DNA from: Amphiura filiformis
Taxonomy: Eukaryota > Echinodermata > Ophiuroidea > Amphilepidida > Amphiuridae
DNA length: 64,000 nucleotides
Assembly: GCF_039555335.1 (NCBI RefSeq)
Contig: NC_092641.1
Span: 30,316,848-30,380,847 of the forward strand
Direction: 5' to 3'
In this document: positions 5,952 through 61,275 of the stretch, in pieces
Layout of the letters: each line of letters starts with the position of its first letter
How positions within the stretch are numbered: position 1 is the stretch's first letter
Notes under the pieces: model-generated
What the model saw: the letters and a program-made list of their open reading frames with translations, nothing else
What the model was told of the DNA's origin: nothing
Databases searched by the model: none
Position numbers and translations under genes: made by a program

Positions 5952-6209
5952 TTACCGGCACATTGGCCATGTTGGCGGACAAGGCAGCCAATATTTTCGA
6001 CGTTGCCTGACTTGGGCGCGGTCAGAGCTTAGCTCTTCTTCCGCGCGTTTTTCGGCAAGTGGGTCACGGCGTATTCTTGCTTCAGCTGCATCATCATTTA
6101 TCGCCAAGTTGTTTCGATCTTGTAGAGTCACATCATGAGCTGGGTTTGCGCAGTGCGCAAATGATGCCACAGCAACAATCAGTATAGCTAGAACTAGGAC
6201 CTTTGCCAT
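5952..6209 (-). CDS. Secreted prepropeptide, Cys-ring type (copy A)
   Basis: The product is 85 residues. I start at MAKVLVL rather than the upstream in-frame Met (6275), because a TATA box lies between them. Residues 1-20 form a clear signal peptide ending AHC. A pro-region (about 21-71) has basic cleavage sites RIRR (45-48), EKR (53-55) and RQRR (68-71). Cleavage at RQRR would release KYWLPCPPTWPMCR, where C77 and C84 can close an eight-residue ring. This layout (signal, acidic pro-region, single C-terminal peptide) is that of neuropeptide, antimicrobial or venom-type precursors. I do not recognise the family and assign no activity. A consensus splice donor (AG then GTAAGA) lies about 30 bases after the stop. 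Three paralogues lie in the window. Confidence 0.75.
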   Translation of the reverse strand: MAKVLVLAILIVAVASFAHCANPAHDVTLQDRNNLAINDDAAEARIRRDPLAEKRAEEELSSDRAQVRQRRKYWLPCPPTWPMCR

Positions 6210-6257
6210 CGTGACTTCGTGTAGCCTGTTATGAATAAACCGATATTTTGTTAGGCT

Positions 6258-6264
6258 CTTTATA
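6258..6264 (-). promoter_or_regulatory. TATA box of peptide gene A
   Basis: Read on the minus strand, ACTATAAAGAGCC lies about 50 bases before the ATG at 6209. That leaves room for a start site near 6230 and a leader of about 20 bases. The same motif sits at the same place in all four paralogues. Confidence 0.65.
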
Positions 6265-6286
6265 GTTTTCTGCATGACTTATTAAT

Positions 6287-6292
6287 CACGTG
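6287..6292 (-). promoter_or_regulatory. CACGTG E-box upstream of peptide gene A
   Basis: A palindromic CACGTG lies 24 to 30 bases upstream of the TATA box and is kept in copies B (46144-46149), C (52497-52502) and D (61343-61348). CACGTG is the classic bHLH site. Conservation between young duplicates is weak proof of function. Confidence 0.4.
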
Positions 6293-6329
6293 TGTTAGAA
6301 TATTTACATTCTGGTCCGCAACGAAAATA

Positions 6330-7100
6330 TGTTTGTGCGTGAAATTAATCAACCTTTCTCTCTACTTTTTCCAGTCACAGATTATTCACCTAAAAGTGTC
6401 CCCTAGTGAGTCAAAAAAAAGCAAGGGCGCAGCCATAACAGCATGCAGGTCCCGATAATGTGGGGGTGGGGCAGTTTGATAATCTCTCTGGCTCAATATC
6501 TGGACAAGATAGACAAGATCTGAACCTTGCTAGGATATCAATTGACTCGGGGGAAAAAGTCTGAAATTAATTGGCAACTTCTGTAGATTAAATTCAGACT
6601 TCCGCTCTCCCCATGGTTCATTTAGGATTGGGTAAATGAATTACCAAAGTACTCCGTCGTTCGGAGGGGACGTTAAGCCGTTGGTCCCGTGTGCAGAGAG
6701 CCATTCCTGTACATGTATTTCGCAGCCAGTTTCGAAAAGAGTAGGGTGTTAACCCCTGACTGTTCCCAATCCGTCCCGGTGTTCAAATGGACCCCAATGG
6801 AAATAATCTTCAATAGAGGCTTTCTTGCGCTATCCAGGGTTATCAAAACCCGAACAAATCAAATCAAATCAAAATTAATTGACGGGTAACCGCCCTTTCT
6901 CCCTCCTTTTTCCAGTCACATATTTTTCACTGAAAAGTGTCTTCTAAGGAGTCAAAAAAGCAAGGGCGCAGCCAGCATGCAGATCTGATCACGGAGAGGG
7001 TGGGCAGCTTGATAGTCCCTCTGACTCAATTTCGGGACAAGATAGACAACAAATTCGGTGCTAAATATGAGCATGGTGTTAAAACATCCTCAACAAAACC
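6330..7100. repeat. Local duplication upstream of peptide gene A
   Basis: The block ttttccagtcacagatt through gcaagggcgcagcc occurs at 6365-6440 and again at 6905-6980 with small differences, separated by the LINE/SINE tail insertion. Unit C has the same doubling; B and D have one block. The frame that crosses it looks non-coding. Confidence 0.6.
6574..6871 (+). mobile_element. LINE/SINE 3' end with (CAAAT)n tail, unit A
   Basis: About 300 bp ending in repeated aaatc units (6856-6871), flanked by a direct repeat AAATTAATTG at 6564-6573 and 6872-6881. The body holds ggaggggacgttaagccgtt and cccgtgtgcagagagcc, typical of the 3' ends of non-LTR elements with short tandem tails. Unit B has the uninterrupted site (gaaattaattgacggg, about 46207). 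The copy in unit C is at 52785-53082, so insertion came before the A/C split. Confidence 0.7.
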
Positions 7101-7985
7101 CCCTTTATGACAAAATAATTTATGTCTGTTACAGCGAACGAACTGAAGACGGGAATAATACAGGAGGTGCTGTTCCCACCTAAAAACACATTATGAGAGT
7201 GCCTTCAATAATTAAATAAATTTGTAAATTTGTACTCGCTCAGCGGGCAATTTGTGAGCAAATCAGGTGGTTCTTTTGACAATAAGGTATGTTTGAGTAT
7301 TATGTTAGCAATTATAAAGGCGTAACCAAGGGGTGCACTTTAAACACATATCTAAACTTAAATAAAGGTTATGCTACTTGCAACGCTTTTTAAACTCTTG
7401 TAGGTGTTTACACAGTCAAGGTATAGAAGTAAATACTACATTAAACACTTTCAATGCTAAACTATTAGGCTACACATAGTCGCTCCTAAACCCTTATGCT
7501 ACACACGTCCAATTATTTCCACTCTAAACCCCTAGCTGTAACCATTTTTAAATACGTTAGGCGTTTATCCAATTTGTTATTAGTCCAAAAAATATTGTTG
7601 TGTTGCCCTCAAGTGGGAAAAATGGGAAAGTTGGGTCGGTCGGTCGGAATTGTTTTTTTTAACCTTCAGTTTTTAAAAATCCCTTCAAATATTAAATAAT
7701 GCTTCTTCAATTAGGGGACCATTTGTCAATTTTGACTTCTGGATACTTGTTAGACATGTTAGATATTTAATTAAAGATTAGTCTATCAATAAAATATTAA
7801 TTGGCCTATACTCTACATGTACTTTTTCAGAAAAAGGTTTTCTATTTTGATACATATTCTCCTACACATCACAAATCCAAAATAAAAACACCGTCCCTTT
7901 GGTTACAAGTTATCACACTTTGAATTTGTATCTAAACGCATCCTAACAACTTATATCCGTCTTAAATACCTTAATGCTACCGTTT
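7100..7985. other. Non-coding part of unit A shared with unit C
   Basis: AT-rich sequence matched at about 53.3-54.17 kb with small indels. I find no frame or structured RNA that I can support. A stretch including ctacatgtactttttcagaa near 7815 pairs, in unit C only, with an inverted copy about 350 bases away. Confidence 0.5.
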
Positions 7986-7986
7986 A

Positions 7987-8661
7987 CAGTGGCGTACCGT
8001 GGCCGCCCTTCCCCCGCATTTCAACCGGGGGTTGAAAAATCAATTTTGCCGCCCTTCCTCAACAGCCCGAAAAGGTTGCCCCAATTTTTTACGGTCGTTT
8101 GAAAAAGTGAAGTGCAAAAAAAAAAGGATTTATAGGCGCTACCGCCCTAAAAGCAACACATTTTGATGTATGGTACAATTTTTCACATTTTCCGCCCTTT
8201 TTCTTTACTAATTCTTTTTGCCGCCCTTCTTCTTCCGCCGCCCTCTTTTTGCCGCCCTTCTTCTTTCCGCCGCCCTTCGATTTGGCCGCCCCTGCTTTGA
8301 CCCCGGGGTTGGCGCTCCCAAGGCCCCCACAAAATACTCGCATGGTTTAGCTAAGCCCCGAAGAAGTTCTCCCTAGTTGAAGGTATACCGGGATGTGCCA
8401 TGGTTTTGGGATACCTTTTCAGCAATTTTGGTATATCGATGGGTGGGTTGTCAGTGGAGATTGAGCGCATTTGGGAAAATGTGCCACTAAAAGCGCCCAA
8501 TTAGGGCAAATTTGGGTGCATTTTGGGTGTTTTTTTGTGAAAAATTGGTATACTGATGGGTGGCAAAAACAGCAAAAAGTAGGTATAGAGAAAGTCAGCA
8601 TCCGAAAGTCTGCGTGGCACATACCCATATTTTTTTTTTCGAAGACCCCCCCCCCCGGAGC
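7987..8661. mobile_element. Insertion in unit A absent from unit C
   Basis: Unit C reads accgtttaactaagcgac without interruption (about 54170). Unit A has about 675 bases between accgttta and ctaagcgac. The insert begins cagtggcgtaccgtgg, a start common in hAT-like elements. It contains low-complexity ccgcccttcttc repeats and a second half built on ggtatacngatgggtgg. I see no matching inverted end, so the class stays open. Confidence 0.6.
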
Positions 8662-10140
8662 TAAGCGACATGTTTAGATATCAAACATCAACTTATTTAT
8701 AATCTAAACACAATATAACCGCCACTGTTTAGCTTAATTGTGTGTAGGTTATACAGGTTGATGTTTAAACGCCCAATGTGTCAAAAAAGTGTTACAGCTC
8801 AGGATTTACAGTGTGGGTATTATTTTAAAATATAAACACAGATTTTATAACATTTCACTACACAAACCTGTTTATGAAAATTTTAGTGTTTAAAGTAAAG
8901 CATTGTATAGACGTTTCTAGTTCTGTTAATCATAAACATGGAATTTGTATGCAACTTTGCCGAATTTTATACAATTTGCCGACAACTTTGCATCACTTAA
9001 GTTAAGTTGCGGAACTTACAGAAAGCTTATCACATTTTGAAAATTTTTACTCTACTATGCGACACTTTAATATGCAACATTTGATACAGAGTTTGTATGC
9101 GTTTTCATATTCATGATTAATATTTTTAACATAAAACCGTTTAACATATTTAACTTTATATCATTAACCCAGTTGTGTACATTTATTGAGTTGTAAAAAA
9201 ACGATACTTAAATTAAATGGATTGTCTAAGCAGAGATTTACAGAGATTGCAATTTCATTCAATTGCAGGCAGCTGTGCGCATTTTATTTTTATTTTATGC
9301 ATTATGCCGTTCGTATTCGTTTTTGCATTCTGATTAACAGTACTTAAACATAATACAATAATAAACTTAATGACATTAATGAACCTAGTGTGCGCTTTCA
9401 TCAAGCTATAGGTAATTAAATTTAATGGTATGTCAATTAAATGAATTTACATTAACCCTTCTAAATATCTCAAACCATTTTATTTTCTGATTAACATTTA
9501 CAGAACTTTGTTGCAAAAGGACTTTGATCCACTTTTTGACTTTTTATGCAAAACAGCTTTTTTTAATCATTGTGCAATTATTACTTGTTCTATTTGAAAT
9601 ATTTTGGTTTTGGATACAGTGCTGATGATTAGAAACTAAAAGAATAGGTTTGGTACAATTTTCCAAGTCTTAATATTTCTTTTATTATTTCTTTTATATC
9701 ACGCCTTTTGTGGATATAAGGCCTTTTGCTGCAAAATAAATTTACCTCTTTTCTAGAAACCACATTTGCAATCAAATTTGAGCCCATTTTTTGAACTACC
9801 TTATGTAGCTTGACTAATGCTTTTAAAATAATCAAAAAAAGAAAATTTGTAATATCTCATTTACTTTTTTTAATGTAAATGTTTAATTAAATTCTGCAAA
9901 ATGCCATTTTGGGCCATTTTTTAGTATTTCCAAAGCTACAACTTTTGTTATTTAATTTTTTTTTCAAACATAGTGACCTAAAACAGTTTCTTTGGTTTTA
10001 ATATATTATATATCAAAAATTTAAAACAAAACAATTTTTCCAAAATTTTATATTCATTTTAAGTTCAGATTTCGGGAAATTTCCGTAGCTTTCCAAAAGG
10101 GAAATATACGATATCTCTGGAAGGGAAGGCGGTATTAAGG
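8661..10140. other. AT-rich non-coding tail of unit A
   Basis: It is matched in unit C up to about 9695 and then diverges. From 9700 to 10140 there is aaggccttttgctgcaaa and a stretch ttttatattcattttaagtt (about 10047) that recurs on the far side of the LINE at 11.76-11.93 kb. No gene is seen. Confidence 0.5.
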
Positions 10141-10156
10141 TGAACCAGCCACCAAA

Positions 10157-16319: not shown

Positions 16320-16397
<78 letters not shown>

Positions 16398-18094
16398 CAA
16401 ATTTTGTAGACACAATGTGTCAAAGCGCTAAACATAAAAAGTGACGACACCAACAATTCAGCAATAATTACATAACGATATTACGAAGTTTAGAAGTTCT
16501 TGATATGAAGGGGGAAAGGCAGATCAGAAATATCATGTTCAACACCGGAGGAGGGCACTTAACTTTAGAAGTGACAGGTATTGTATCAGTGAGGGCGTCT
16601 TCCTCAGCAAATGTTATAATATGGCTTTAACTTTAGAAGTGACAGGTATTGTATCGGCGTTGGGTAGTAGGGACCTATCACATATAAAGATTGAAATAAC
16701 GTTGTATTTGCAAATGAACTTCATCCTGATTTCAATTTTTGCATTGAAATTTGGTTGCAATCAGGTTGAAATTTCAACCTGATTTCAACTAACCTCTAGG
16801 TTGAAATCAAGTTGAAATCAGGTTAGGTTGAAACTTCGACGTTATATAAACGTTGATTTAACGTCGAAATCCTAACCTGTTTCCACTGGGTAATGAAAAA
16901 GAAAAATTGGGTACACAATTTTGAAAAAAAAGTACAAAAGTTTGCAAAACATTGGGTCAGCAGGTAACAAAATTACCCTTGTTCCAACTTTGCCAAATAT
17001 ACAATTTAAATTTGCTGAAATAAGAGTTTGAAAGTTTCTGATTATTTTTATGGTATTTTATGATAAAATTCTAGAAAAGGTGGTCACTGGATAGCCGAAC
17101 TAATAAAGGGTCGGATATTTTCGACTGAATGGTCTAATGATAGGCACATACCCGTCACTTCTAAAATTGAATGCCCCCCTAGTTCAGCAATTACACCTAG
17201 ATTTCTTTCACTCGGAGCTGGTTCAATCGTTGAGTCACGAATGTGTGGTGATGGATGGAAATGTAGATGAATGCGAAAGCGAGATGATAAGTGAAGAACT
17301 TCAGTTTTGTCAGCATTCAGTTTCAGATCATTGCAGTTGACCAATACATAAAGTCTTTGACCAGATTGACACATAGTTCAAGATTAAAAAATAGTTGCAT
17401 GGGTATCATTGTCATTGACTATAACATAAATTTGAGTATCATCTACATAAATCATTTTGACAAGCCATATGAACCTATTATTATAATGTCATCAATTAGA
17501 GAAGTATAAAAAGTGAAAGTAAGTAAAGTGGTCCAATAACTGATCCATGTGGGCGCCTTCTTCTGGTGTTTGACTGAGATATGCGAATTCCATAAGCGAT
17601 GACACATTGAGTGCGATTCTGAAAGTATATGATATAAACCTAGGAAGAGCTGAGAGTATTACATTATTGCCATACCTGTCGGTCTGTCGCGCCTCTGGAA
17701 GGCACGCTACGATAGTATGTTTGTGGGACATGAGAGCACATCAGACATATCGAATTGAATTCTGAATACGAGGAATGTCCTTCTTATATCAAATAATTTT
17801 GATTTTTTTTTAATCGCGATATAATACAAATTTTATGACAAGTTATTAAAATTTGATATTTTGGTATATTAACAGTCCTCGAAGTAAACTTTCTAAATCT
17901 AATGATATTTACTTAAAACTGCATGTAGCTGGGATAAAAAGCCGACGATCAATTGAAAATTTTTACTTTTCGTATTGAAGATATGGATTTTTTCCCCAAA
18001 AGACCTATTTTTTAAGTCCATATCTTCAATACGACAGGTCAACTTTTTCAATGGATCGTCGGCTTTTCATCCCAGCTACATACACTGTAAGTAC
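15838..18094. repeat. Segmental duplication unit B, left part
   Basis: It matches unit D from 57660 (catacatcactttagatctg) and unit A from about 3000. It ends exactly where the 26-kb transposon begins; the same unit resumes at 44541. A 78-bp local duplication at about 16560-16660 (two copies of aactttagaagtgacaggta) is found only here. Confidence 0.85.
17184..17585 (-). pseudogene. LINE reverse-transcriptase fragment (unit B)
   Basis: Same motifs and order as the unit A fragment: YVDD box near 17445, NADKTEVLH near 17310 and PSERNLGVI near 17210. The GVPHGS box has lost bases (gtgggcgcc instead of gtggaacgcc). It is a decayed passenger in the duplication. Confidence 0.7.
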
Positions 18095-18335
18095 TCTCTA
18101 AATGTAAAAGAGTGAAAACCCACTCAAAAGGAGTGAAATTCCACTCTTCAAAGGAGTTAAACGCAGGACAACACATTTTAGAGTGAAAAAAAGAGTGGTC
18201 TCCAATTCACTCGAAAAAGAGTGAAACACCACTCTTTGCAAAGAGTGATAACGTTACCACTCTCTTGGAAAGAGTGGAACTTATTCACTCGTTTAAGAGT
18301 GGAATCATCCACTCTTTCTAAAGAGTGGTTTTATT
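18095..18335. repeat. Left subterminal GAGTG/CACTC array
   Basis: About 16 copies of GAGTG or CACTC in 240 bases, often paired as short hairpins such as gagtgataacgttaccactc. Such arrays inside transposon ends are usually transposase binding sites. About 11 copies lie in the right end. Confidence 0.75.
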
Positions 18336-22562: not shown

Positions 22563-23008
22563 ATGGCAAAAATCAAACTCAAATCAGTTACACAAACTTA
22601 CTTTCTCAAAAACGACATTTTCTTTTCAGGATTTTGATTTCCTGAGTGGCTAGAACCCTGAATCTCAAGATTACTTACTACTACCTGCCAGCAATGTGAT
22701 GCTTGTCAACTCAGACTCAATAATGTCCATTTCATTTCCACAATGCCAGTACCGTGCTACATTTGAGACATCAATTTACCAGTTTTGCCCAGATTCACTC
22801 TCATTGCACTCAGTCTAATGCTCACGACTTTATTGTTCCTTGTGTCAAAGGCATTGCTTCTAACACCTTTTACAATGCCATCTGTGACTGGAACATATAT
22901 AAATCAATTAATTGCATTCAAAGTAAAGAGAGAGGTCTTCAAGAGAGCTGTTAAGAATTTTGCCATGAGAGAGAAACTGCCGCACAAATTTGAACATGTG
23001 AAGACTTA

Positions 23009-34185: not shown

Positions 34186-34189
34186 TTTC

Positions 34190-44232: not shown

Positions 44233-44334
44233 TGTGGTAAAAAGACTGAAAGCAGTGCTGAAAGTTTCATCGTTCGCTTGACGCATCGTGATTGGTTGCC
44301 TCGCTTCCCGCCTCGCTTTCAGTGCCGATAATTT

Positions 44335-44540
44335 TTATCACTCGGTAGACGAGTAGTCGAAATTCACTCGGGAATATGACATTGAGTGGTAAAATCGGAC
44401 CACTCGATGAAGGAGTGAACCAATCCGAAAAAGAAATGGTTACATTATCACTCAAATAGGAGTGAAAAGTACTCAATTAGGAGTGAAAGTCAGTTCACTC
44501 TAATCAGAGAGTGGAAATTTCACTCTTTTACATTTAGAGA
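44335..44540. repeat. Right subterminal GAGTG/CACTC array
   Basis: About 11 copies of GAGTG or CACTC in 200 bases, ending in the TIR. It mirrors the left array. It lies just upstream of exon 1 of the SAM gene, so it could also act on that promoter. Confidence 0.75.
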
Positions 44541-45798
44541 GTACATATCATTACATTTATAAATATTTAAATATTTATATTTCAAGTTTTAATCATTTGC
44601 CATAAAATGTGTGTTATATCGCGAATTTAAAAATTATTTGATATCAGAAGGACATTCTTATTAGATTCAGAATGCAATTCGATATGTCCTCTCATGTCTC
44701 GCAAAAAATACAGTCCAAACGTTCATACCAAAGCCCTTAACGAAAAAGTATAATCATTAAGGTTATTGAAGACTTTGTATCAATCATAGCAGCGGTGTAG
44801 ATTTGATGTAGAACCACATCCCACTTCTTCTCCAGGAGCTATACTGCCATGAATTTTTGGCATTTTAGGAATTGAATTGTGTCGATTTTTTCTGTCTTTC
44901 TTTCTTCACTCTCGCTCTATGACCATAAATAATTGTCTAATTATGGAATGCATTAAGTAACAACCCTACATGTACATAGACTTGTTAGGTTACACTCTTA
45001 TAATAGCGTGTAGGCTATATACATGTGTGAAAAACTATGTATCACTTTTTACAAACAAATCATTCCCGCACCCTCCTACCGCTCCTGCTGGATACACTAA
45101 GCCAAAATAATTAACTGCATTTTCTGCATGCAATTACAGGCAAAAATTGAAGAGCTTTTAATTAACGATTTTAACAGGTGTATGCCCGCTATGTTGAAGA
45201 TTCGTCGATGTCGAAGGTTCGGTATCGAATTGGAATTTTACTCATATTATACCAGAGGGTTCGCTATGTCAAATAGGAAATAAAGTTTGCTCGAACATGG
45301 TCGAATATGAAAGAGGATTACGCATAATATCTACAATGTAAATTTCAAGTATTTACAATAAATCCTAAGGGATTGTGATTAGGGACCAATCAAGTAGTAG
45401 ATTTAAAATCAAGTCTTACAGATTTAAAATCAAAACTTAAAGATTTGAAATTCAAATCTATCAGATTAATTTCAAATCTAAAATTGATTAGTCCCTGACT
45501 CCCTGATTACAACATTAAGGATTTATTTTTAAATCCTTGTAATTTAGAGTGTAGGGTTAGGGTTAGACTTATGGCTAGGTTTAGGGTTACGGATATGGCC
45601 CGGGGATATGGCTAGGGTTAGAATTCTGAGTTAGGGTTAGTTTCAAGGTCTGCGTTTGGGAAAAAGTCGATATTCGACATAGCGGAACTTCGATAACAGG
45701 CTGGATGAACCTTCGACATAGCGGGCTATATTAACCAATCTAACATGCTTAAAAGAATATCTTACCTAACCTATTCGTAGATCCCTACAGGCAGGTGA

Positions 45799-46056
45799 TT
45801 ACCGGCACATTGGCCATGTTGGCGGACAAGGCAGCCAATATTTTCGACGTTGCCTGACTTGGGCGCGGTCAGAGTTTAGCTCTTCTTCCGTGCGTTTTTC
45901 GGCAAGTAGGTCACGGCGTATTCTTGCTTCAGCTGCATCATTATTTATCGCCAAGGTGTTCCGATCTTGTAGAGTCACATCATGAGCTGGATTTGCGCAG
46001 TGCGTAAATGATGCCACGGCAACAATCAGTAGAGCGAGAAATAGGATCTTTGCCAT
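45799..46056 (-). CDS. Secreted prepropeptide, Cys-ring type (copy B)
   Basis: 85 residues, start MAKILFL. The signal peptide (1-20, ending HC), RIRR site and RQRR site match copy A. The predicted mature peptide KYWLPCPPTWPMCR is identical to that of copy A. Differences lie in the signal and pro-region (for example LLAEKRTEEELNSD against PLAEKRAEEELSSD). Variation in the pro-region with an unchanged mature end suggests that the mature part is constrained, though the copies are young. The gene lies just right of the giant transposon. Confidence 0.75.
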   Translation of the reverse strand: MAKILFLALLIVAVASFTHCANPAHDVTLQDRNTLAINNDAAEARIRRDLLAEKRTEEELNSDRAQVRQRRKYWLPCPPTWPMCR

Positions 46057-46105
46057 CGTGTATTCGTGTAGCTTGTTATGAGTACGGGTAAACCGATGCT
46101 CGGCT

Positions 46106-46112
46106 CTTTATA
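46106..46112 (-). promoter_or_regulatory. TATA box of peptide gene B
   Basis: CTATAAAGAGCC on the minus strand, 50 bases before the ATG. CACGTG follows upstream at 46144-46149. Confidence 0.6.
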
Positions 46113-46526
46113 GTTTTCTGCATGACTTGTTAATCACCATGATCACGTGTGTTATGATAATTATATACATTCTGATTCTGGTCGGCAATGAAAATACGTT
46201 TTTGTCTGAAATTAATTGACGGGTAAGCGCCCTTTCTCAAAGACTTTTTCCAGTCACAGATTTTCACCAAAAAGTGTCCCTTAATGAGTCAAACAAGCAA
46301 TCCCTCTGGCTCAATATTGGCACAAGATAGACAACAAATTAGGTGCAGTGGATCTGAACTTCTTCTTTTAAGACCCTTTTATGACCAAAATTTATAATAC
46401 TTATGGCTAAATTAGTGTCAAGAAAACCCCCTTTATGTCCAGATCAGTGAACAAAGTGATAATTAGTTTTTGGTTGTTTTTTGTTTTTGTTTGTTTTTGT
46501 GGGTGAGTGTTGTTTATTTGTTTATT

Positions 46527-47170: not shown

Positions 47171-49870
47171 CCCTGCACCTTTGTTCCATAACCATTAAGG
47201 TATAGGACATTTTTCTGCCTCCGCAGGAGGTAGTCTGCTTTGAAATTGACACCTAAAATGCCGCACATTGCGCGGCATGTAGGCCGATTGTACAAATTTA
47301 TATTCTGAGAAGTACTCTAATTTCCGCCCAATATTGAGAGCCCAATTTATATCCCCCACCTCTCTACGTCATACATAAATTCGCCTATCGCCATTTCCGA
47401 ATGTTCAAAAACGTAATCACGCTTCCTCAGCATGTGCAATAAATTAGCATTAAAATTAATCTTATTCTATAGGGATTCTAGAAACACGAAGCATGTGGCG
47501 CCAATGGCGTGGGTCTATCAAGTTCATGAATTATGCATTAGAATATTTTCAAACTCATATGTTGTATAATTGAAGACGAATTAAAAAGACTAGCTTGCGT
47601 ATGCCGTCCTGTCAACCAGACCAAAAATGCCATACCGCGCAGGTCAGCAACCAATCACGGCGCGCCTTTGTCATGACGTCAGACGCAAACTGGTATTTTT
47701 TTAATTCGGCCTTTAATTATAGGTTGTAGCCTCAGCGCTTATCAGCAGCTTTATCGTAGAAGACAAGTTGGAAAACCGTTATGCTGTGGCAATGGGAATA
47801 CACATCAACCGAGGTTTAATTTCATGATTAGGGCCTACATGAAACCTGATTATCAATGCAAAAACTTTGGCTGGAGAAGTTGAAGCTGACGTTCATGGCG
47901 ACACTTTGGATGTGATAATTTGACATCATGGATTGTTTTGTGCAAAATTGGAGGTTTTTTGTGCCGCGGCGAGTCAGCAGACCGACTGGCATGCAGGCCT
48001 AGCTCGACTAGGCCACAATCATGATCATGATGCATTTGAACTGCAATGTATGGTATGTCAGGTATGATACGCCTAGCCGCGCCTATGGCCGGCTTCATTG
48101 CTGTTCAAATACATGTACTAAAGTATTGCAATTTTATTGCGTTGATATAATTCGGAATAATTCGTTCGTTTAAAGTATTTGCTTCCCCAATTCCCATGCG
48201 TGGTTGGTCATGTTGGTGGTATGTATGTCAGTTTTTTACATTCTACTGCTGAGTACTGTTGCATTATTTTTGCATGCATAGTGCATACCCATGATCGCTT
48301 CAAGACTATGACTGAGAAATTTGGTGTTTGTTTGTTAAGATAAAAATAAAAATAAAATGCAAGAATCATCTTTCCCCACGCAATACTTCTTACAAACAAG
48401 GTGTTGATATTGGCCCTTTCGATGCAAGACAAAGCACAAATGAAGGAAACAAAACAAAACAATAATGTTTTTGATTTTTTATTCAATTACACATACAAAA
48501 AAGTAATGACCTATGAAAAGACCCCCCTAAATATAATAATATTAATATTATTTTTAGTCCTGAATACAAACTTAAATATAATAAACAAGCATTAAAGAAT
48601 CTGATACGAAAATGTGTTACTCTGAAACGTTGCAATCGTAATTTTCAGTCAAAAAATCCACGAGAAATGACTCTTGATACAACTTAGGCCTATATTTAAA
48701 AAGCAGAAACGGCTGTCTGCATCTGGAACTCTTCATATCTGAAAGTTTGAAGGTCTTATTTCATACATCGGAATTATCTGCAAGATTGCTTTAGATGACC
48801 GTGGCCCTATTGGCTAATGCACAAATTTAGATTTTCTTTATATTTAAATAATATGTTAAAGCTTTTGCCCTGTAGATTACATTCGGTTCTTGAGATATGG
48901 CCTGTCAAAATGGCGCGAAACCAAAACAAAAAATTGGCAGCAACTTTCTTTTTATTTTCTATATTTTTGACAAGTCCAGTTGCCAGATGATTTTCTAATT
49001 ACATGCATGAATTATGCAAAGTAAAGATTTCAGATAGGCCTACAATTAAAAGAGCAATGGTACTGAGGCATGGTACATGGGTAGAACACACACTATACTA
49101 CAAAATTACGGTTGCGTTTTGGCAAATTTCAATTTGCATAATTAATTAGGGCCACTTATTAGAAAAGTTGATTAGGGCCCTAATTAATTATGCAAATGGA
49201 AATTTGCCAAAGGCATCCATGGGTTTTATATCTCACTTTGTAGCCGATCTGAACATTTTACTTTGTATAATTCTTACATATATAATTAGAAAATAAGGCC
49301 TACCTGACAACATTGCATAACAAAAATAAAAGAAATTTGTTGCCAACTTCTTGGTTTCGCGCCATTTTGACAGGCCACATTTTGGTAACCGAATATCCGA
49401 TTAAAATAAAAAATTCAGTCTTGTAATCAGGAGAGAATGGACTCGCATATTTCAATCAGACAAAATCTATATCCAATAGCGTTACCTTAAAGCTAGCATT
49501 ATAAGTGTCTCCTTAGCTAATAACAAAAGGTGCCCACTGGTATCCTGGAGGCATTGTCTTTTTTTAAGACATTTCTTGTTTGTTTTTGCTATAGCCCCCG
49601 AATGAAATGTATTTAATTATGTTTGTACACTCAGGTAGCATTGTGTATGAATTTTACGTCCGATTTAAGTGCTATTCTTTTTTATGGGCATTTTAGTGTC
49701 TAAAATGGCCCAAAATTAGGGTTTTTCAATATTGCCGTCCATTTAATCTAATCGTCATCCCCATATACTTTATAGGCAAAATAAACAGCACCTAGTTCGG
49801 ATGTAAAATTCACACAAAATGTATTTTGAGTGATTACAAAGAAAATACTTTTTATTCGGGGGCTATGTGG
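47171..49870. mobile_element. 2.7-kb insertion splitting unit C
   Basis: Its limits are set by comparison with units A, B and D. The contents are non-coding as far as I can see. They include a foldback at 48890-49400 (cctgtcaaaatggcgcgaaa pairing with tttcgcgccattttgacagg), an inner palindrome at 49110-49215 (gcataattaattagggcc arms), and a MITE at 49590-49867 with catagcccccgaat ends. A stretch at 49490-49580 (gcattgtctttttttaagac) resembles 40650-40735. I see no TIR for the whole insert, so it may be several events. Confidence 0.55.
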
Positions 49871-49884
49871 TTAAGCAATTATAA

Positions 49885-50270
49885 CTAGATTCCTTTCACT
49901 CGGAGCTGGTTCAATCGTTGAGTCACGGATGTGTGGTGATGGATGGAAATATAGATGAATGCGAAAGGGAGATGATGAGTGAAGAACTTCAGTTTTGTCA
50001 GCATTCAGTTTGAGATCATATTTGCAGTTGACCAATAAAAGTCTTTGACCAGGTTGATACATAGTTGCATGGGTAGGCACAATATAGTATTATATTATTA
50101 TGTAACATTAAATTGAGTATCCTCTACATAAATCATTTTTGACAAGCCATATAAATCTATTATTATAATATCATCAATTAGAGAAGTATAAAGAGTGAAA
50201 GTAAGTAAAGTGGTCCAATAACTGATCCATGTGGAACGCCTTCTTCTGGTGTTCGACTGAGATATGCCGA
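49885..50270 (-). pseudogene. LINE reverse-transcriptase fragment (unit C)
   Basis: NADKTEVLHSSSPF and PSERNLVII are read at about 49900-50000 and GVPHGSV near 50240. The fragment has the same limits as in unit A, with extra small indels between the YVDD region and the NADKTE region. Confidence 0.7.
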
Positions 50271-51078
50271 ATTCCATAAACGATGACACATTGAGTGTAA
50301 TTCTGAAAGTATATGATATAAACCAAGAAAAAGCTGAATTTATTAAATTATTGGAATGTCTATCTGATCGTAACGGCTCTGGTATGAACGTTTCGATAGT
50401 ATGTTTGTGGGACATGAGAGCACATCAGATATGTCGAATTGAATTCTGAATACGAGGAATGTCCTGCTTATTTCAAACAATTTTGATTTTTTTTTTTTGA
50501 ATCGCGATATAATACAAATTTTATGACAAGTTATTAAATTTGATACTTTTTTAAATTTTGGTATTAACAGTCCTCGAAGTAAACTTTCTAAGTCTAATAA
50601 TATGTACTTAAAACTGTATGTAGCTGGGATAAAAAGCCGACGATCAATTGAAAAAGGTTGACCTTTCGTATTGAAGATATGGATTTTCCCCAAAACACCA
50701 AAAGTCCATATCTTCAATACGACAGGTCAACATTTTCAATGGATCATCGGCTTTTCATCCCAGCTACATAGGCACTTTAAGTACATATCATTAGATTTGT
50801 AAATATTTATTTCGAGGACTGTTAACATGGTTTAATATCATGTTTTAATCATTTGCCATAAAATGTGTATTATATCGCGAATTTCAAAGTTATTTGATAT
50901 CAGAAGGACATTCTTATTGTATTCAGAATGCAATTCGATATGTCTGATGTCCTCTCATGTCTCACAAAAAATACTGTCCAAACATTCATACCCCAGCCAC
51001 TAACGAAAAAGTATAATCAATAAGGTTATTGAAGACTTTGTATCAATCATAGCAGCGGTGTAGATTTGATGTAGAACC

Positions 51079-51463
51079 CCGGGGGGGCACTCAACACAAA
51101 TGACCATACGGGTATGCTCCCCGGAAAGACCCCCTTTTGGGGTTTCGCAGCTCGAAAGACCCCTATATTTGACCAAAATAACGCTCCGAAAGACCCTTGA
51201 TTTTGACAATTTCAGCTCTAAAAAAGCTCATTCCTCATATTTCTTGTTTTTTCAGGCGATTTTCAACCAAAAAGCCAAGAAAGACCCTTGATTTTGACTT
51301 TTCGCAGCTCCAAAAGACCCCATTTTACTTGTTCACGGCTCGGTTCGCAGCTCTGAAAGACCCCCTTTTACCGGTACGCCGTCAGCTCCCAAAGACCCAC
51401 CACCTCAAAATTCCGGGGGAGCATACCCACCAAAAATTGTCGATGTGCCCCCCCCCCCCGGGG
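51079..51463. mobile_element. Element of about 385 bp unique to unit C
   Basis: Units A, B and D read gatgtagaaccacatcc here. Unit C has GTAGAACC at 51071-51078 and again at 51464-51471, bracketing an insert with CCGGGGGGGCAC and GTGCCCCC..GGGG ends and repeated ctcgaaagaccc motifs. An eight-base duplication fits hAT or Mutator types. A frame of 167 codons starting inside it is not a gene. Confidence 0.8.
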
Positions 51464-52089
51464 GTAGAACCACATCCCACTTCTTCTCCAGAAAGCTATA
51501 CTGCCATGAATTTTTGGCATTTTAGGAATTGCATTTCCTGCATGCAATTACAGGCAAAAATTGAAGAGCTTTTAATTAACGATTTTAACAGGTGTATGCC
51601 CGCTATGTTGAAGGTTCGCCGATGTCGAAGGTTCGGTATCGAATTGGAATTTTACTCATATTATACCAGAGGGTTCGCTATAATGTCAAATATGAAATAG
51701 TTTACTCGAAAATTGTCGAATAAGAAAGAGGATTAGGCATATATCTACACTCTAAATTTCAAGTATATAAAATAAATCCTAAGGGATTGTTATTAGGGAC
51801 CAATCAAGTATTAGATTTAAAATCAAATCTTACGGATTTAAAATCAGAACTTAAAAATTTCATACTCAAATTTTTAAGATTAATTTCAAATATAATTACA
51901 ATCTTACGGGTTTATTTTTAAATCCTTCTAATTTAGAGTGTAGGGTAAGAGTTAGAGTTAGAATAGTGAGTTATGGCTAGTTTCAAGATCTAGGTTTAGG
52001 GAAAGATTCGACATACCGTATCACATGGCGAACCTTATTCGACATAGCGGGCTATATTAACCGATCTAACATGTTTAAGAATATCTTAC

Positions 52090-52410
52090 CTAACCTTTCC
52101 AATATTGTCGACGTTGCCCGACTTGGGCACGGTCAGAGTAAAGCTCTTCTTCCGCGCGTTTTTCGGAATAAAATGGTGGCTGGTAGCGGGCTTTTTGTTG
52201 ACGTTGCCTGACTTGGGCGCGATCAGAGTTTAGCTCTTCTTCCGCGCGTTTTTCGGCAAGAGGGTCACGGCGTATTTTTGCTTCAGCTGCATCATCATTT
52301 ATCGCCAAGTTGTTTCGATATTGTAGAGTCACATCATGAGCTGGGTTTGCGCAGTGCGCAAATGATGCCACAGCAACAATCAGTATAGCTAGAACTAGGA
52401 CCTTTGCCAT
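52090..52410 (-). CDS. Secreted prepropeptide, duplicated-spacer type (copy C)
   Basis: 106 residues from MAKVLVL. The first 70 residues match copy A (signal 1-20, KIRR at 45-48, EKR, RQR). Then QQKARYQPPFYSEKR is inserted, followed by a second AEEELYSDRAQ block and QRRQYWKG. Basic sites would free a peptide containing ARYQPPFYSE and a terminal QYWKG. A final Gly can be converted to an amide, and an N-terminal Gln to pyroglutamate. The two cysteines of copies A and B are missing. The stop TAG directly abuts a consensus donor, GTAAGA. One substitution, RRQYW preceded by GQ, weakens the last tribasic site. Confidence 0.7.
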   Translation of the reverse strand: MAKVLVLAILIVAVASFAHCANPAHDVTLQYRNNLAINDDAAEAKIRRDPLAEKRAEEELNSDRAQVRQRQQKARYQPPFYSEKRAEEELYSDRAQVGQRRQYWKG

Positions 52411-52467
52411 CGTGACTTCGTGTAGCCTGTTATCATGGTTATGAATAAACCGATATTTTGTTAGGCT

Positions 52468-52474
52468 CTTTATA
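52468..52474 (-). promoter_or_regulatory. TATA box of peptide gene C
   Basis: ACTATAAAGAGCC on the minus strand, 58 bases before the ATG (six bases further than in A, through a small insertion in the leader). CACGTG lies at 52497-52502. Confidence 0.6.
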
Positions 52475-52784
52475 GTTTTCTGCATGACTTATTAATCACG
52501 TGTGTTAGAATATTTACATTCTGGTCCGCAACGAAAATATGTTTGTGCGTGAAATTAATCAACCTTTCCCTCTACTTTTTCCAGTCACAGATTATTCACC
52601 TAAAAGTGTCCCCTAGTGAGTCAAAAAAAAGCAAGGGCGCAGCCATAACAGCATGCAGATCCCGATAATGTGGGGGTGGGGCAGTTTGATAATCTCTCTG
52701 GCTCAATATCTGGACAAGATAGACAAGATCTGAACCTTGCTAGGATATCAATTGACTCGGGGGAAAAAGTCTGAAATTAATTGG

Positions 52785-53082
52785 CAACTTCTGTAGATTA
52801 AATTCAGACTTCCGCTCTCCCCATGGTTCATTTAGGATTGGGTAAATGAATTACCAAAGTACTCCGTCGTTCGGAGGGGACGTTAAGCCGTTGGTCCCGT
52901 GTGCAGAGAGCCATACCTGTACATGTATTTCGCAGCCAGTTTCGAAAAGAGTAGGGTGTTAACCCCTGACTGTTCCCAATCCGTCCCGGTGTTCAAATGG
53001 ACCCCAATGGAAATAATCTTCAATAGAGGCTTTCTTGCGCTATCCAGGGTTGTCAAAACCCGAACAAATCAAATCAAATCAA
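52785..53082 (+). mobile_element. LINE/SINE 3' end with (CAAAT)n tail, unit C
   Basis: Paralogue of 6574-6871 with the same flanking AAATTAATTG repeats and very few differences (for example ccatacctg for ccattcctg). Confidence 0.65.
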
Positions 53083-54544
53083 AATTAATTGACGGGTAAC
53101 CGCCCTTTCTCCCTCCTTTTTCCAGTCACATATTTTTTCACTGAAAAGTGTCTTCTAAGGAGTCAAAAAAGCAAGGGCGCAGCCAGCATGCAGATCTGAT
53201 CACGGAGATGGTGGGCAGCTTGATAGTCCCTCTGACTCAATTTCGGGACAAGATAGACAACAAATTCGGTGCTAAATATGAGCATGGTGTTAAAACATCC
53301 TCAACAAAACCCCCCTTTATGACAAAATAATTTATGTCTGTTACAACGAACGAACTGAAGACGGGATTAATACAGGAGGTGCTGTTCCCACCTAACAACA
53401 CATTATGAGAGTGCCTTCAATAATTAAATAAATTTGTACTCGCTCAGCGGGCAATTTGTGAGCAAATCAGGTCAACTTTGCCAGGGGAAGGCTTTGGCGC
53501 TTTGATATTGACAAAGGTATGTTTGAGTATATGTTAGCAATTAAACTTCAATAAAGGTTATGCTACTTGCAATTTCGCTTTTTACACTCTTCTAGGTTTT
53601 ACACAGTCAAGGTATAGAAGTGAATACCACATTAAACACTTTCAATGCTAAACTATTAGGCTACACATAGACGCTCCTAAACCCTTATGATACATCAAAT
53701 TATTTGCACTCTAAACCCCTAGCTGTAACCATTTTTAAACACGTTAGGCGTTTAGCCAACTTGTTATTAGGCCCAAAAATATTGTTGTGCTGCCCTCAAG
53801 TGGGAAAAAAAATATGGGAAAGTTGGGTCGGTCGGTCGGATTTCTTTTTTTTTTAACCTTCAGTTTTTAAACATCCTTTCAAATATAAATTAGGGGACCA
53901 TTTGTCAATTTTGACTTCTGGATACTTGTTAGACATGTTAGATATTTAATTAAAGATTAGTCTATCAATAAAATATTAATTGGCCTATACTCTACATGTA
54001 CTTTTTCAGAAAAAGGTTTCCTATTTTGATACATATTCTCCTACACATCACAAATCCAAAATAAAAACACCGTCCCTTTGGTTACAAGTTATCACACTTT
54101 GAATTTGTATCTAAACGCATCCTAAAAACTTATATCCGTCCTAAATACCTTAAATGCTACCGTTTAACTAAGCGACATGTTTAGATATCAAACATCAACT
54201 TATTTATAATCTAAACACAATATAACCACCACTGTTTAGCTTGTGTGTAGGTCATACAGGTTGATGTTTGGTATCTAACATATCTAAACATATATAATGT
54301 AAACACAAGTTAAATATTATTTTGGATTTGTGACGTGTAGAAGATAGGTTTCAAAATATGAAACCTTTTTCGGAAAAGGTACATGTAGATAATAATAATG
54401 ATTTGGCTAAAAAAACGCCTAATGTGTCAAAAAAAAGTGTTACAGCTCGGGATTTACAGTGTGGGTATTATTGTAAAATATAAACACAGATTTTATAACA
54501 TTTCACTACACAAACCCTGTTTATGAACATTTTAGTGTTTACAG

Positions 54545-55198
54545 TTAAGGGAAGGGGTATGAACGTTTGGACAGTATTTATTGTGGGACATTAGAGCACA
54601 TCAGACATATCGAATTGCATTCTGAATACGAAGAATGTCCTTCTGATATCAAATAATTTTGATTTTTGAAATTCGCAATGTAATACACATTTTATGGCAA
54701 ATCATTAAAATTGATATTTTTGATATTTAACAGTACTTGAAGTAAACTTTATAAATCTGATGATTTATACTTAAAGTGTATGTAGGAGGGATGACAAGCC
54801 GACGATCAATTGAAAATTTTGACCTTTCGTATTGAAGATATGGATTTCTTTTCCCAAAACACCAAAACAAAATAGGTCTTTTTGGGGAAAAAATCCATAT
54901 CTTCAATAATTTTCAATTGATCGTCGGCTTTTCCTCCCAGCTACATACACTTTAAGAATATATCATTAGATTTATCAAATTTATTTCGAGGACTGTTATA
55001 TATCAAAAATTTGAAAAATATCAAATTTTAATAATTTGTCATAAAATTTGTATTATATCGTGAATTTCAAAAATGAAAATTATTTGATATCAGAAAGACA
55101 TGCTTCGTATTCAGAATGCAATTCGATACGTCTGAGGTGCTCTCATGTCCCACAAAATACTGTCGAAACGGCATAAACGCTCATTCTAGATCCCTTAA
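54545..55198. mobile_element. Separate TTAA hairpin MITE insertion in unit C
   Basis: TTAAGGGAAGGGGTATGAAC on the left and a TCCCTTAA end on the right, with the same body as the hairpin MITE at 4310-4906. The unit A counterpart (about 8885, gtttaaagtaaagcattgta) lacks it. It therefore moved after the A/C duplication and shows the true ends of the family. Confidence 0.8.
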
Positions 55199-56009
55199 GC
55201 ACTGTATAGACGTTTCTAGTTCTGTTAATCATAAACATGGAATTTGTATGCAACTTTGCCGAATTTTATACAATTTGCCGACAACTTTGCATCACTTAAG
55301 TTAAGTTGCGGAACTTACAGAAAGCTTATCACATTTTGAAAATTTTTACTCTACTGTACGACATTTTAATATGCAACATTTGATACAGAGTTTGTATAAG
55401 TTTTCATATCCATGATTAACATTTTTGTAACATAAAACCGTTTAACATATTTAACTTTATATCATTAAACCAGTTGTGTACATTTATCGAGTTGTAACAA
55501 AAACGATAATTAAATTAAATGGATTGTCTAAGCAGAGATTTACAGAGATTGCAATTTCATTAAATTGTAGGCAGCTGTGCGCATTTTATTTTTATTTTAT
55601 GCATTAAGCCGTTTGTATTCGTTTTTGCATTCTGATTAACAGTACTTAAACATAATACAATAATAAACTTAATGACATTAATGAACCTAGTGTGCGCTTT
55701 CATCAAGCTATAGGTAATTAAATTTAATGGTACGTCAATTAAATGAATTTACATTAACCCTTCTAAATACTAGTATCTCAAACCATTTTATTTTCTGATT
55801 AACATTTACAGAACTCTGTTGCAAAAGGACTTTGATCCACTTTTTTACTTTTTAAGCAAAACAGCTTTTTTTAATCATTGTGCAATTATTACTTGTTCTA
55901 TTTGAAATATTTTGGTTTTGGATACAGTGCTGATGATTAGAAACTAAAAGAATAGGTTTGGTACAATTTTCAGAGTCTTAATATTTCTTTTATTATTTCT
56001 TTAATACTG

Positions 56010-57590: not shown

Positions 57591-58874
57591 TAACCCGTGT
57601 TCACCAACCCGTATAAATTTTCTGTCGAACAAAAGAGGTCACGAAGTTGCTGTCGTACTGTTATGCATACATCACTTTAGATCTGAAATCGATCAATTTA
57701 TAATGACACACACAATTCTAAAACAACATCTTTTGCACAGAATTCAATGGGATTTGAAAAGTAAAGTGGCAGTTGAAACTCTAGTGATAACACTTTTACA
57801 GTGCATGATGGGGCTTCCATAAATCATCCTCTGCGGTTACTCCATGCATGGTGTGATTTTTTTCCTCCGACATTCCGCGACTCTTAGTCTCACATCAAAT
57901 TGAGAATCTTAATATTTTAAACTAACGAGGAATTAACTTAGATAACGTACCAAATTAGATTGTATTGATATTTATTAGATTTTATTGACATTTATTATGT
58001 AATTTCCCTTGTTTACAATGACGGAGCATTTTCCGTGCAAATATTCAATTTAACCAATATTCTTTTATTTCAACGGATCGCAGAAACGTGTATGTATAAA
58101 TGGAATGCACATCTGATGAAGAAGGTGACCAGCAATACCATAATAATAATAATAATAATAATAAATCCAATTTTGTAGACACAATGTGTCAATGCGCTAA
58201 ACATAAAAAGTGACGACACCAACAATTCAGCAATAATTACATAACGATATTAAGAAGTTTAGAAGTTCTTGATATGAAGGGGAAAGGCAGATCAGAAATA
58301 TCATGTTCAACACCCGAGGAGGGCACTTAACTTTCGAAGTGACAGGTATTGTATCGGCGTTGGGAAGTAGGGACCTATCACATATAAAGATTGAAATAAC
58401 GTTGTATTTGCAAATGAACTTCATCCTGATTTCAATTTTTGCATTGAAATTTGGTTGCAATCAGGTTGAAATTTCAACCTGATTTCAACTAACCTCTAGG
58501 TTGAAATCAAGTTGAAATCAGGTTAGGTTGAAACTTCGACGTTATATCAACGTTGATTTAACGTCGAAATCCTAACCTGTGTCCAATGGGTAATGAAAGA
58601 AAATTGGGTACACAATTTTGAAAAAACAAGAGTACAAAAGTTTGCAAAACATTGGGTAGGAAAATTAATTTTTTCCAACTTTGCCAAATATACAGTTTAA
58701 ATTTGCTGAAATAAGGGAGTTTGATAGTTTCTGCATTATTTTTATGGTATTTTATTTTATGAAAAAGGGGATCACTGGATAGCCGAACTAATCAGGGTCG
58801 GATATTTTCGACTCAGTGGTCTAATGACAGGCACATACCCGTCACTTCTAAAGTTGAATGACCCCTTGGTTCAG

Positions 58875-59275
58875 CAATTACACCTAGATTTCTTTCACTA
58901 GGAGCTGGTTCAATCGTTGAGTCACGGATGTGTGGTGCCGGATGGAAATGTAGATGAATGCGAAAGGGAGATGATGAGTGAAGAACTTCAGTTTTGTCAG
59001 CATTCAGTTTCAGATCATTGCAGTTGACCAATGCGTTAAGTCTTTGACCAGATTGACACATAGTTCAAGATTAAAAAATAGTTGCATGGGTATCATTGTC
59101 ATTGACTATAACATAAATTTGAGTATCATCTACATAAATCATTTTGACAAGCCATATGAACCTATTATTATAGTATCATCAATTAGAGAAGTATAAAGAA
59201 TGAAAGTAAGTAAAGTGGTCCAATAACTGATCCATGTGGAACGCCTTCTTCTGGTGTTTGACTGAGATATACCGA
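58875..59275 (-). pseudogene. LINE reverse-transcriptase fragment (unit D)
   Basis: The motifs GVPHGSV (about 59245), YVDD (about 59135), NADKTEVLH (about 59005) and PSERNLGVI (about 58895) are present in the same order and in different frames. Confidence 0.7.
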
Positions 59276-60963
59276 ATTCCATAAACGATGACACATTGAG
59301 TGCGATTCTGAAAGTATATGATATAAACCAAGAAAGAGCTGAATTTATTAAATTATTGAAATGTCTATCTGATCGTAACGGCTCTGATATGAACGTTTCG
59401 ATAGTATGTTTGTGGGACATGAGAGCACATCAGACATGTCGAATTGAATTCTGAATACGAGGAATGTCCTGCTTATATCAAATAATTTTTTTTTTAATCA
59501 CAATTTAATACAAATTTTATGACAAGTTATTAAAATTTGATATTTTTAAAATTTTAGTATTAACAGTCCTCGAAGTAAACTTTCTAAATCTAATAATATG
59601 TACTTAAAACTGTATGTAGCTGGGATAAAAAGCCGACGATCAATTGAAAAATGTTGACCTTTCGTATTGAAGATATGGATTTTCCCCAAAACACCAGGTG
59701 AAGATTTTCAATGGATCGTCGGCTTTTCATCCCAGCTACATAGGCACTTTAAGTACATATCATTAGATTTATAAATATTTATTTCGAGGATTGTTAACAT
59801 GGTTAAATATCATGTTTTAATCATTTGCCATAAAATGTGTATTATATCGCGAATTTCAAAATTATTTGATATCAGAAGGACATTCTTATTGTATTCAGAA
59901 TGCAATTCGATATGTCTGATGTCCTCTCATGTTTCACAAAAAATACTGTCCAAACATTCATACCCCAGCCCCTAACGAAAAAGTAAAATCAATAAGGTTA
60001 TTGAAGACTTTGTATCAATCATAGCAGTGGTGTGGATTTGATGTAGAACCACATCCCACTTCTTCTCCAGGAGCTATACTGCCATGAATTTTTGGCATTT
60101 TAGGAATTGAATTGTGTTGATTTTTTTCTGTCTTTCTTTCTCCCCACCCCTCACTCTCCCTCTAAAACCATAAATTGTCTAATTATGGAATACAAGTATT
60201 AAACAACCCTACATGTACATTATAGACTTGTAAAGTCACACTCTTATAATAGCGTGTAGGCTATATACATATGTTCTGAAAAACTATGTATCACTTTTTT
60301 ACAAACAAATCATTCCCGCACCCTCCTACCGCTCCTGCTGGTTACACCTTAGCCAAAATAATTAACTGTATTTTCTGCTGTACCGGCAAAAAATGAAAAG
60401 CTTTTAATTAACGATTTTAACAGGTGTATGCCCGCTATGTTGAAGGTTCGCCGATGTCGAAGGTTCGGTATCGAATTGGAATTTTACTCATATTATACCA
60501 GAGGGTTCGCTATAATGTCAAATATGAAATAGTTTACTCGAAAATTGTCGAATAAGAAAGAGGATAAGGCATATATCTACACTCTAAATATACTCAAGTA
60601 TATAAAATAAATCCTAAGGGATTGTTATCAGGGACCAATCAAGTATTAGATTTAAAATGAAATCTTACAGATTTAAAATCAAAACTTAAAAATTTCATAT
60701 ACAAATTTATAAGATTAAGTTCAAATATAATTACAATCTTACGGATTTATTTTTAAATCCTTCTAATTTAGAGTGTATGGTAAGAGTTAGAGTTAGAATA
60801 GTGAGTTATGGCTAGTTTCAAGATTTAGGTTAGGGAAAGATTCGACATATCACATGGCGAACCTTATTCGACATAGCGGCCCTTCGACATAACAGAACCC
60901 TGGAATGAACCTTCGACATAGGGGGCTATATTAACCGATCTAACATGTTTAAGAATATCTTAC

Positions 60964-61275
60964 CTAGCCTTTCCAATATTGTCGACGTTGGGCACGGTCA
61001 GAGTTTAGCTCTTCTTCCGCACGTTTTTCGGAATAAAATGGTGGCGCGTAGCGGGCTTTTTGTTGACGTTGCCTGACTTGGGCGCGATCAGAGTTTAGCT
61101 CTTCTTCCGCGCGTTTTTCGGCAAGTGGGTCACGGCGTATTCTTGCTTCAGCTGCATCATCATTTATCGCCAAGTTGTTTCGATCTTGTAGAGTCACATC
61201 ATGAGCTGGGTTTGCGCAGTGCGCCAATGATGCCACAGCAACAATCAGTACAGCGAGAACTAGGACATTTGCCAT
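60964..61275 (-). CDS. Secreted prepropeptide, duplicated-spacer type (copy D)
   Basis: 103 residues from MANVLVL. Signal peptide 1-20 ends LAHC; RIRR lies at 45-48, EKR at 53-55 and RQR near 68-70. Then come QQKARYAPPFYSEKR, a second AEEELNSDRAQ block and RRQYWKG. The predicted products are a peptide containing ARYAPPFYSE and a QYWK stretch with a Gly that could be amidated. It is three codons shorter than copy C in the second spacer, and the RQ-RR site is simplified to RR. The stop TAG was kept, but the bases around the donor downstream are CCTAG then GTAAGA on the minus strand, still a consensus donor. Confidence 0.7.
   Translation of the reverse strand: MANVLVLAVLIVAVASLAHCANPAHDVTLQDRNNLAINDDAAEARIRRDPLAEKRAEEELNSDRAQVRQRQQKARYAPPFYSEKRAEEELNSDRAQRRQYWKG

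Follow-up and report, generated by a model that had tools for sequence, protein, structure and literature searches.

A candidate four-copy tandem family of secreted prepropeptides with two kinds of end peptide in Amphiura filiformis

Background

Echinoderm signaling peptides patterned on thyrotropin-releasing hormone (TRH) are described as combining an N-terminal pyroglutamate (pGlu or pQ) and a C-terminal amide with aromatic or cyclic amino acids in the second and third positions (PMC4772807), and as tetrapeptides of the form pQXXX-amide (PMC5627052, section 12). Their described precursors (ArTRHP in Asterias, AjTRHP in Apostichopus and OvTRHP1/2 in Ophionotus) join a signal peptide and basic cleavage sites to Q-aromatic-aromatic-X-G units that yield pQXXX-amide, and hold 12, 19 and 21 putative TRH-type peptides, respectively (four in OvTRHP2). 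Here we analyze a 64,000-nucleotide stretch of the Amphiura filiformis assembly GCF_039555335.1 (contig NC_092641.1, positions 30,316,848 to 30,380,847; hereafter the window), in which four homologous minus-strand open reading frames (ORFs), numbered copies 1 to 4 by position, encode putative secreted prepropeptides. Copies 3 and 4 have a predicted motif of this pattern and end in QYWKG, to be compared with QWYTG in Asterias and pQYFA-amide in Apostichopus. Unlike the known TRH precursors, which hold several such peptides, they contain a single predicted tetrapeptide each and copies 1 and 2 contain none, and we rejected filing the family as TRH-type on this account.

Echinoderm defense peptides provide a second point of comparison. 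Sea-urchin antimicrobial peptides with modified tryptophan have been published (PMC4805251). The centrocins and strongylocins, antimicrobial prepropeptides of sea urchins, resemble the predicted products of the present copies in being Trp-containing secreted peptides of echinoderms. Pfam and protein searches with the copies returned nothing. The cysteine pattern of centrocins and strongylocins differs from that of copies 1 and 2. Echinoderm sperm-activating and other Cys-loop short peptides are likewise secreted, some with one disulfide loop or a C-terminal amide; we know of no sequence similarity between them and the copies analyzed here.

Results and discussion

Four intact copies in a tandem array

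An initial annotation, made from the nucleotide sequence alone, had proposed a four-member family of secreted prepropeptides in tandem duplications, and ORF translation, tblastn searches and alignment support this. The four minus-strand ORFs lie exactly where they had been placed and read stop-free, complete and homologous:

5952..6209, minus strand: copy 1, Cys-loop kind, 85 amino acids (aa), C-terminus RQRR-KYWLPCPPTWPMCR
45799..46056, minus strand: copy 2, Cys-loop kind, 85 aa
52090..52410, minus strand: copy 3, amide kind, 106 aa, with an internal repeat and the C-terminus RR-QYWKG-stop
60964..61275, minus strand: copy 4, amide kind, 103 aa, with an in-frame 9-nt deletion relative to copy 3

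As aligned, identity to copy 1 is 89% for copy 2, 82% for copy 3 and 81% for copy 4, and the first 70 codons are common to all four copies without gaps. Searching the window by tblastn with copies 1 and 4 revealed no fifth copy, the remaining matches having E values of about 2 or more.

Self-comparison resolves the window into four tandem units, each with one gene, although the repeats of the unit are patchy:

2979..9698: unit of copy 1, homologous to the other units in patches
16369..18094: unit of copy 2, first part, aligning to 2979-4710 of unit 1
44541..46296: unit of copy 2, second part, beyond a 26.4-kb insertion, aligning to about 4707-6418 of unit 1 (from 44540 and 4706 in the self-comparison)
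49868..56006: unit of copy 3
58141..61576: unit of copy 4

The insertion that splits unit 2 (18095-44540) is bounded by perfect 23-bp terminal inverted repeats (TCTCTAAATGTAAAAGAGTGAAA; 18095-18117 and 44518-44540) and flanked on both sides by a GTAC target, to be compared with the uninterrupted TAAGTACATATC in unit 1. Its ends are rich in GAGTG/CACTC motifs.

Copy 1 is a mosaic, in which recombination has linked one promoter and prepro part with another end peptide. Its ORF matches copy 3 through nucleotide 166 and copy 2 from nucleotide 189, the switch falling just ahead of the end peptide:

6022..6043, minus strand: switch point (copy 1 ORF nucleotides 167-188), copy-3-like before and copy-2-like after

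The flanks follow the same division. Over the 400 nt upstream, copies 1 and 3 differ at 2/391 aligned bases and copies 1 and 2 at 116/347; in the 3' flank, the differences number 1/607 between copies 1 and 2 and 44/515 between copies 1 and 3. The pattern does not polarize the exchange among the copies.

A segment of about 600 bp (4309-4905, 50371-50998, 54544-55170 and 59376-59970) matches its counterparts in the window in inverted orientation at roughly 72-80% identity and looks largely palindromic. Another minus-strand frame is open in units 1, 3 and 4 (4071-4349, 50101-50424 and 59142-59429) and closed in unit 2; its unit-3 version (50101-50424) has a sub-threshold TB2/DP1 match.

Precursor anatomy and predicted peptides

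Each copy begins with a hydrophobic stretch of about the 20 residues that the annotation had assigned to a signal peptide, as judged from Kyte-Doolittle hydrophobicity (10-residue maximum of 3.48 in copy 2 and 3.63 in copy 4, residues 2-20). The basic sites (R/K)IRR, EKR and RQR occur in all four copies, much as annotated, with KIRR replacing RIRR in copy 3; RQRR is found in copies 1 and 2, and RR precedes QYWKG in copies 3 and 4. The pro-region, described as acidic, is only mildly so (about net -2 in copy 1, counted by hand), and the short C-terminal peptide, present in every copy, comes in two kinds and not as one common peptide.

After codon 70, copies 1 and 2 continue as R-KYWLPCPPTWPMCR, a cationic, Trp-containing end, whereas copies 3 and 4 continue with QQKARY(Q/A)PPFYS, a second EKRAEEEL(N/Y)SDRAQ segment and the RR-QYWKG end. 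Since CAACGTCGA(A/C)AATATTGG is present in both kinds, KYW and QYW hold equivalent positions; copies 1 and 2 have an additional stretch ahead of the common TAGGTAAGATATTC, and copies 3 and 4 have the internal repeat instead. Translation, with cleavage sites assigned by inspection and modifications predicted, gives the following candidate products:

5955..5996, minus strand: predicted end peptide KYWLPCPPTWPMCR of copy 1, with two cysteines
45802..45843, minus strand: predicted end peptide KYWLPCPPTWPMCR of copy 2
52162..52200, minus strand: predicted middle peptide QQKARYQPPFYSE of copy 3
52093..52107, minus strand: predicted pQYWK-amide of copy 3 (codons QYWKG)
61027..61065, minus strand: predicted middle peptide QQKARYAPPFYSE of copy 4
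60967..60981, minus strand: predicted pQYWK-amide of copy 4

Copies 3 and 4 alike place an amidation glycine immediately ahead of the stop codon and a glutamine right after RR, so that a motif of the pQXXX-amide type (RR-QYWKG-stop) is predicted in both and is absent from copies 1 and 2.

We propose that the signal peptide would be removed and the precursor secreted, and that furin or prohormone convertases would cut at RIRR, EKR, RQRR or RR to release short peptides. Processing of copies 3 and 4 would turn the C-terminal QYWKG into pGlu-Tyr-Trp-Lys-amide and yield QQKARY(Q/A)PPFYSE as a second product; from copies 1 and 2, the product would be KYWLPCPPTWPMCR, closed by one disulfide, with the predicted oxidized form KYWLPCPPTWPMC(R).

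This anatomy is unlikely to arise by chance, given that a strict secreted/dibasic criterion (an ORF of 60-200 aa with a hydrophobic start, a hydrophilic tail and at least 3 dibasic sites, set after the genes had been seen) selected no ORF in 60 simulated sequences, generated by a first-order Markov process with the composition of the window, and 2 in the window. Under a laxer criterion of 2 dibasic sites, the simulations averaged 0.28 ORFs, with a maximum of 3, vs 3 in the window, one of which is unrelated (22818-23033). Copies 1 and 3 are missing from these counts because the first-ATG rule picked an upstream in-frame ATG. An AlphaFold2 model of copy 1 consists of helices only, at low confidence (pLDDT 64.9, pTM 0.23); weak as it is, the model agrees with a precursor that has no folded domain.

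Gene signals

Every copy has a TATAAA 55-64 nt 5' of the ATG, the start context ACGATGG and an AATAAA 173-271 nt 3' of the stop codon:

6259..6264, minus strand: TATAAA of copy 1, 55 nt upstream of ATG
46107..46112, minus strand: TATAAA of copy 2, 56 nt upstream of ATG
52469..52474, minus strand: TATAAA of copy 3, 64 nt upstream of ATG
61325..61330, minus strand: TATAAA of copy 4, 55 nt upstream of ATG
5688..5693, minus strand: AATAAA of copy 1, 258 nt past the stop
45522..45527, minus strand: AATAAA of copy 2, 271 nt past the stop
51911..51916, minus strand: AATAAA of copy 3, 173 nt past the stop
60746..60751, minus strand: AATAAA of copy 4, 212 nt past the stop

Copies 1 and 3 have an additional in-frame ATG 5' of the TATA box, in a longer frame that is closed in copies 2 and 4. 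A donor-like TAG|GTAAGA falls right at the stop of copies 3 and 4; in copies 1 and 2 it follows the stop by about 30 nt. It is unable to extend the protein, because the stop codon precedes GTAAGA in every copy; an intron in the 3' untranslated region (3'UTR) of the four genes is possible.

Search for relatives

The annotation had recognized no known family, and our searches concur. No relative was found among 5.8 billion proteins at E values up to 10, either by phmmer with copy 4 or with a profile of all four copies (10 and 134 word-sharing candidates tested, respectively), and none of copy 1 in PDB. Pfam gave two weak matches for copy 1, the better at 13 bits vs the 29.8 needed, and none for copies 2-4. 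Pattern scans of IMG/VR and GTDB genomes produced 19 + 40 and 34 matches, respectively, none of which was confirmed by tblastn; the genome collection is bacterial and archaeal, and absence from echinoderms is thus weakly supported. Peptide strings were also searched in PubMed Central full text, which does not extend to supplements: among the matches listed, every occurrence was YWKG and no title concerned these peptides. A second set of strings gave no match in the same full text, the supplements outside it being home to many precursor sequences. A sea-cucumber peptide, GYWKDLDNYVKAHKT, has YWK in common with the peptides of the copies, which we take as coincidence.

Weighing function against neutrality

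Several results weigh against a functional, secreted peptide family. No homologue emerged from the databases searched, and thus no cross-species conservation is shown. The VRQR site ahead of QQKARY in copies 3 and 4 departs from the canonical furin consensus. The annotation had suggested that selection acts on the four copies and had named the ratio of non-synonymous to synonymous rates (dN/dS) as a check. Across codons 1-70, dN is below dS in all six pairs, with very few changes. Counting each inferred substitution once, as read by hand from the codon list and the aligned tails, there are 25 (8 synonymous and 17 non-synonymous), for a pooled dN/dS of 0.82 (95% confidence interval 0.33-2.18; p 0.39 for synonymous excess). 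The ratio is not different from 1, and neutrality is not rejected.

Comparison of the coding stretch with flanks realigned from a shared anchor gives no better support. Against the 3' flank, no significant slowing is seen in three pairs: differences in the coding stretch and the flank number 16/210 vs 44/502 for copies 2-3 (p 0.66), 14/210 vs 59/541 for copies 2-4 (p 0.10) and 7/210 vs 28/572 for copies 3-4 (p 0.44). The coding stretch is slower than the 3' flank for copies 1-3 (p 0.002) and 1-4 (p 0.0002) and faster for copies 1-2, as expected because copy 1 is mosaic. Relative to the near 5' flank, it is slower solely in the pairs of copy 2 with copies 1, 3 and 4 (p 0.002-0.007), the near 5' flank of copy 2 differing at 30/180 bases from copy 3 and 26/167 from copy 4; it is not slower in the three pairs without copy 2. 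When the flanks were taken from the four-way alignment, the 5' comparisons gave p 6e-5, 3e-5 and 2e-6 for copy 2 vs copies 3, 4 and 1, and p 0.40 (1-4) and 0.42 (3-4) for pairs without it; the 3' comparison gave p 0.02 (3-4). We prefer the anchor-realigned results, and the substitution-rate argument for selection was rejected.

Among the five copy pairs compared for indels, the collinear coding part shows none other than the in-frame 9-nt one (for pairs 2-3, 2-4 and 1-3 the downstream part of the count took in the non-homologous C-terminus). The probability of observing zero frameshifts ranges from 0.05 to 0.34 across the six pairs and is significant in none, and intact frames are modest evidence only, because the copies are similar and have recombined. 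All 6 replacements in the hydrophobic core remain hydrophobic, with p reaching only 0.06, and a simulation of random substitution, in which all features were retained in 8% of runs, is uninformative.

A control on other ORFs of the units lends modest support to a functional gene. We considered ORFs of at least 45 aa, trying every ATG, and called a frame intact if its ATG plus 90% or more of its length survived in each copy that covers it. Of the eight stop codons of unit 1, taken as reference, only that of the peptide gene has such a form; the other seven have none, although the control ORF at 4071-4349 (minus strand) survives in units 3 and 4. Taking unit 4 as reference instead (5 stop codons, same length rule), nothing passes, not even the peptide gene, because the 85 aa of copies 1 and 2 fall short of its 103. 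If only the first ATG is considered, the upstream form of the peptide gene also fails, in copies 2 and 4.

The annotation had also drawn an argument from broken LINE (long interspersed nuclear element) fragments copied along with the intact genes. This could not be reproduced: five reverse-transcriptase relatives, representing one LINE family, match the window solely at 10163-11500, where none of the repeated units extends and where the frame is itself uninterrupted for 454 aa. The argument was rejected on this account; the units may hold broken fragments of another LINE family.

Competing explanations

On balance, we consider a lineage-restricted family of secreted prepropeptides, most likely serving neural, endocrine or gamete-related signaling, to be the best available explanation, with confidence that falls slightly short of even. 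In this reading, unequal crossing-over within the array would have swapped the end-peptide cassette on a common prepro scaffold. As the annotation held, the sequence does not choose among neuropeptide, antimicrobial and other roles; the pQYWK-amide predicted from copies 3 and 4 tilts the balance toward a signaling peptide. It is rather unlikely, in our judgment, that the copies are host-defense precursors, processed in the same way, in which the Trp/Pro-rich, cationic, disulfide-closed KYWLPCPPTWPMCR would be the antimicrobial effector and the changing ends its diversification. Tandem copies with a common prepro part and differing mature ends would suit such a role, as would the cationic, Trp-containing end of copies 1 and 2 and the modified-Trp peptides of sea urchins mentioned above, but no Pfam family reaches its cut-off and pQYWK-amide would be very short for a membrane-active peptide. 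The identical ends of copies 1 and 2 are uninformative on selection, because their 3' flanks are also near-identical (1/607).

That there is no functional gene now, but a locally duplicated ORF kept open by the similarity of the copies and by homogenization through recombination, appears similarly unlikely. The dN/dS near 0.82, the lack of relatives in the collections searched and the openness of other unit ORFs in particular copies (for instance 4071-4349 in units 1, 3 and 4) all agree with it. It has to contend with the TATAAA, start context and AATAAA found in 4/4 copies despite the diverged near 5' flank of copy 2, with the failure of all seven control ORFs of unit 1 to stay intact, and with a precursor anatomy unlikely by chance under the strict criterion. 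Improbable altogether is that each ORF belongs as an exon to a longer protein, possibly a known one, or to an alternatively spliced gene: the donor-like TAG|GTAAGA would point that way, but it follows the stop codon in every copy and could start a 3'UTR intron only, and the spacing of TATAAA and AATAAA fits a compact gene.

Within the favored reading of a secreted prepropeptide family, we put forward, as a more doubtful extension, a new peptide family in which a common prepro scaffold carries interchangeable end cassettes (a disulfide loop or a TRH-like pQYWK-amide), swapped within the ORF by unequal crossing-over in the array. Were this true, array recombination would make new combinations of regulation and secreted signal. 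If expressed, the genes would represent a peptide family that the searched databases lack, combining a predicted tetrapeptide amide near the TRH pattern of echinoderms with a separate loop peptide that shares its scaffold. They would also be a small natural case of local recombination altering what a peptide gene produces. Precursors such as these, short and without relatives, are easily overlooked in homology searches.

Other features of the window

Scans of the window for Rfam families (at gathering score) and for tRNAs found none. The retroelement ORF next to unit 1 (10139-11500, plus strand, 454 aa) has a zf-RVT match just under the cut-off and 245 relatives. Among the 120 listed, four are organism-named: Lytechinus variegatus, Amphiura filiformis, Diadema antillarum and one alphaproteobacterial metagenome-assembled genome, the last probably eukaryotic contamination. 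This single mobile element would place the window in echinoderms.

Inside the 26.4-kb insertion, two adjoining long minus-strand ORFs (32087-34194; 344 and 367 aa, the latter showing a C2H2 zinc finger below threshold) have no Pfam transposase match; our guess is a DNA-transposon protein. A SAM_2 domain above cut-off, covering profile positions 24-62 of 66, lies at 30223-30606 (minus strand), and inspection of about 44200-44300 (minus strand), near the right end of the insertion, suggests a start codon followed by a SAM-like opening stretch and a donor-like site, such that one gene may span the element. The window further holds a tandem array at 37263-38727 with a unit of about 152 bp, of which a related inverted copy occurs at 14641-14841, and an inverted repeat (23007-23179 and 23446-23618) with 173-nt arms that are 95% complementary across a 266-nt spacer.

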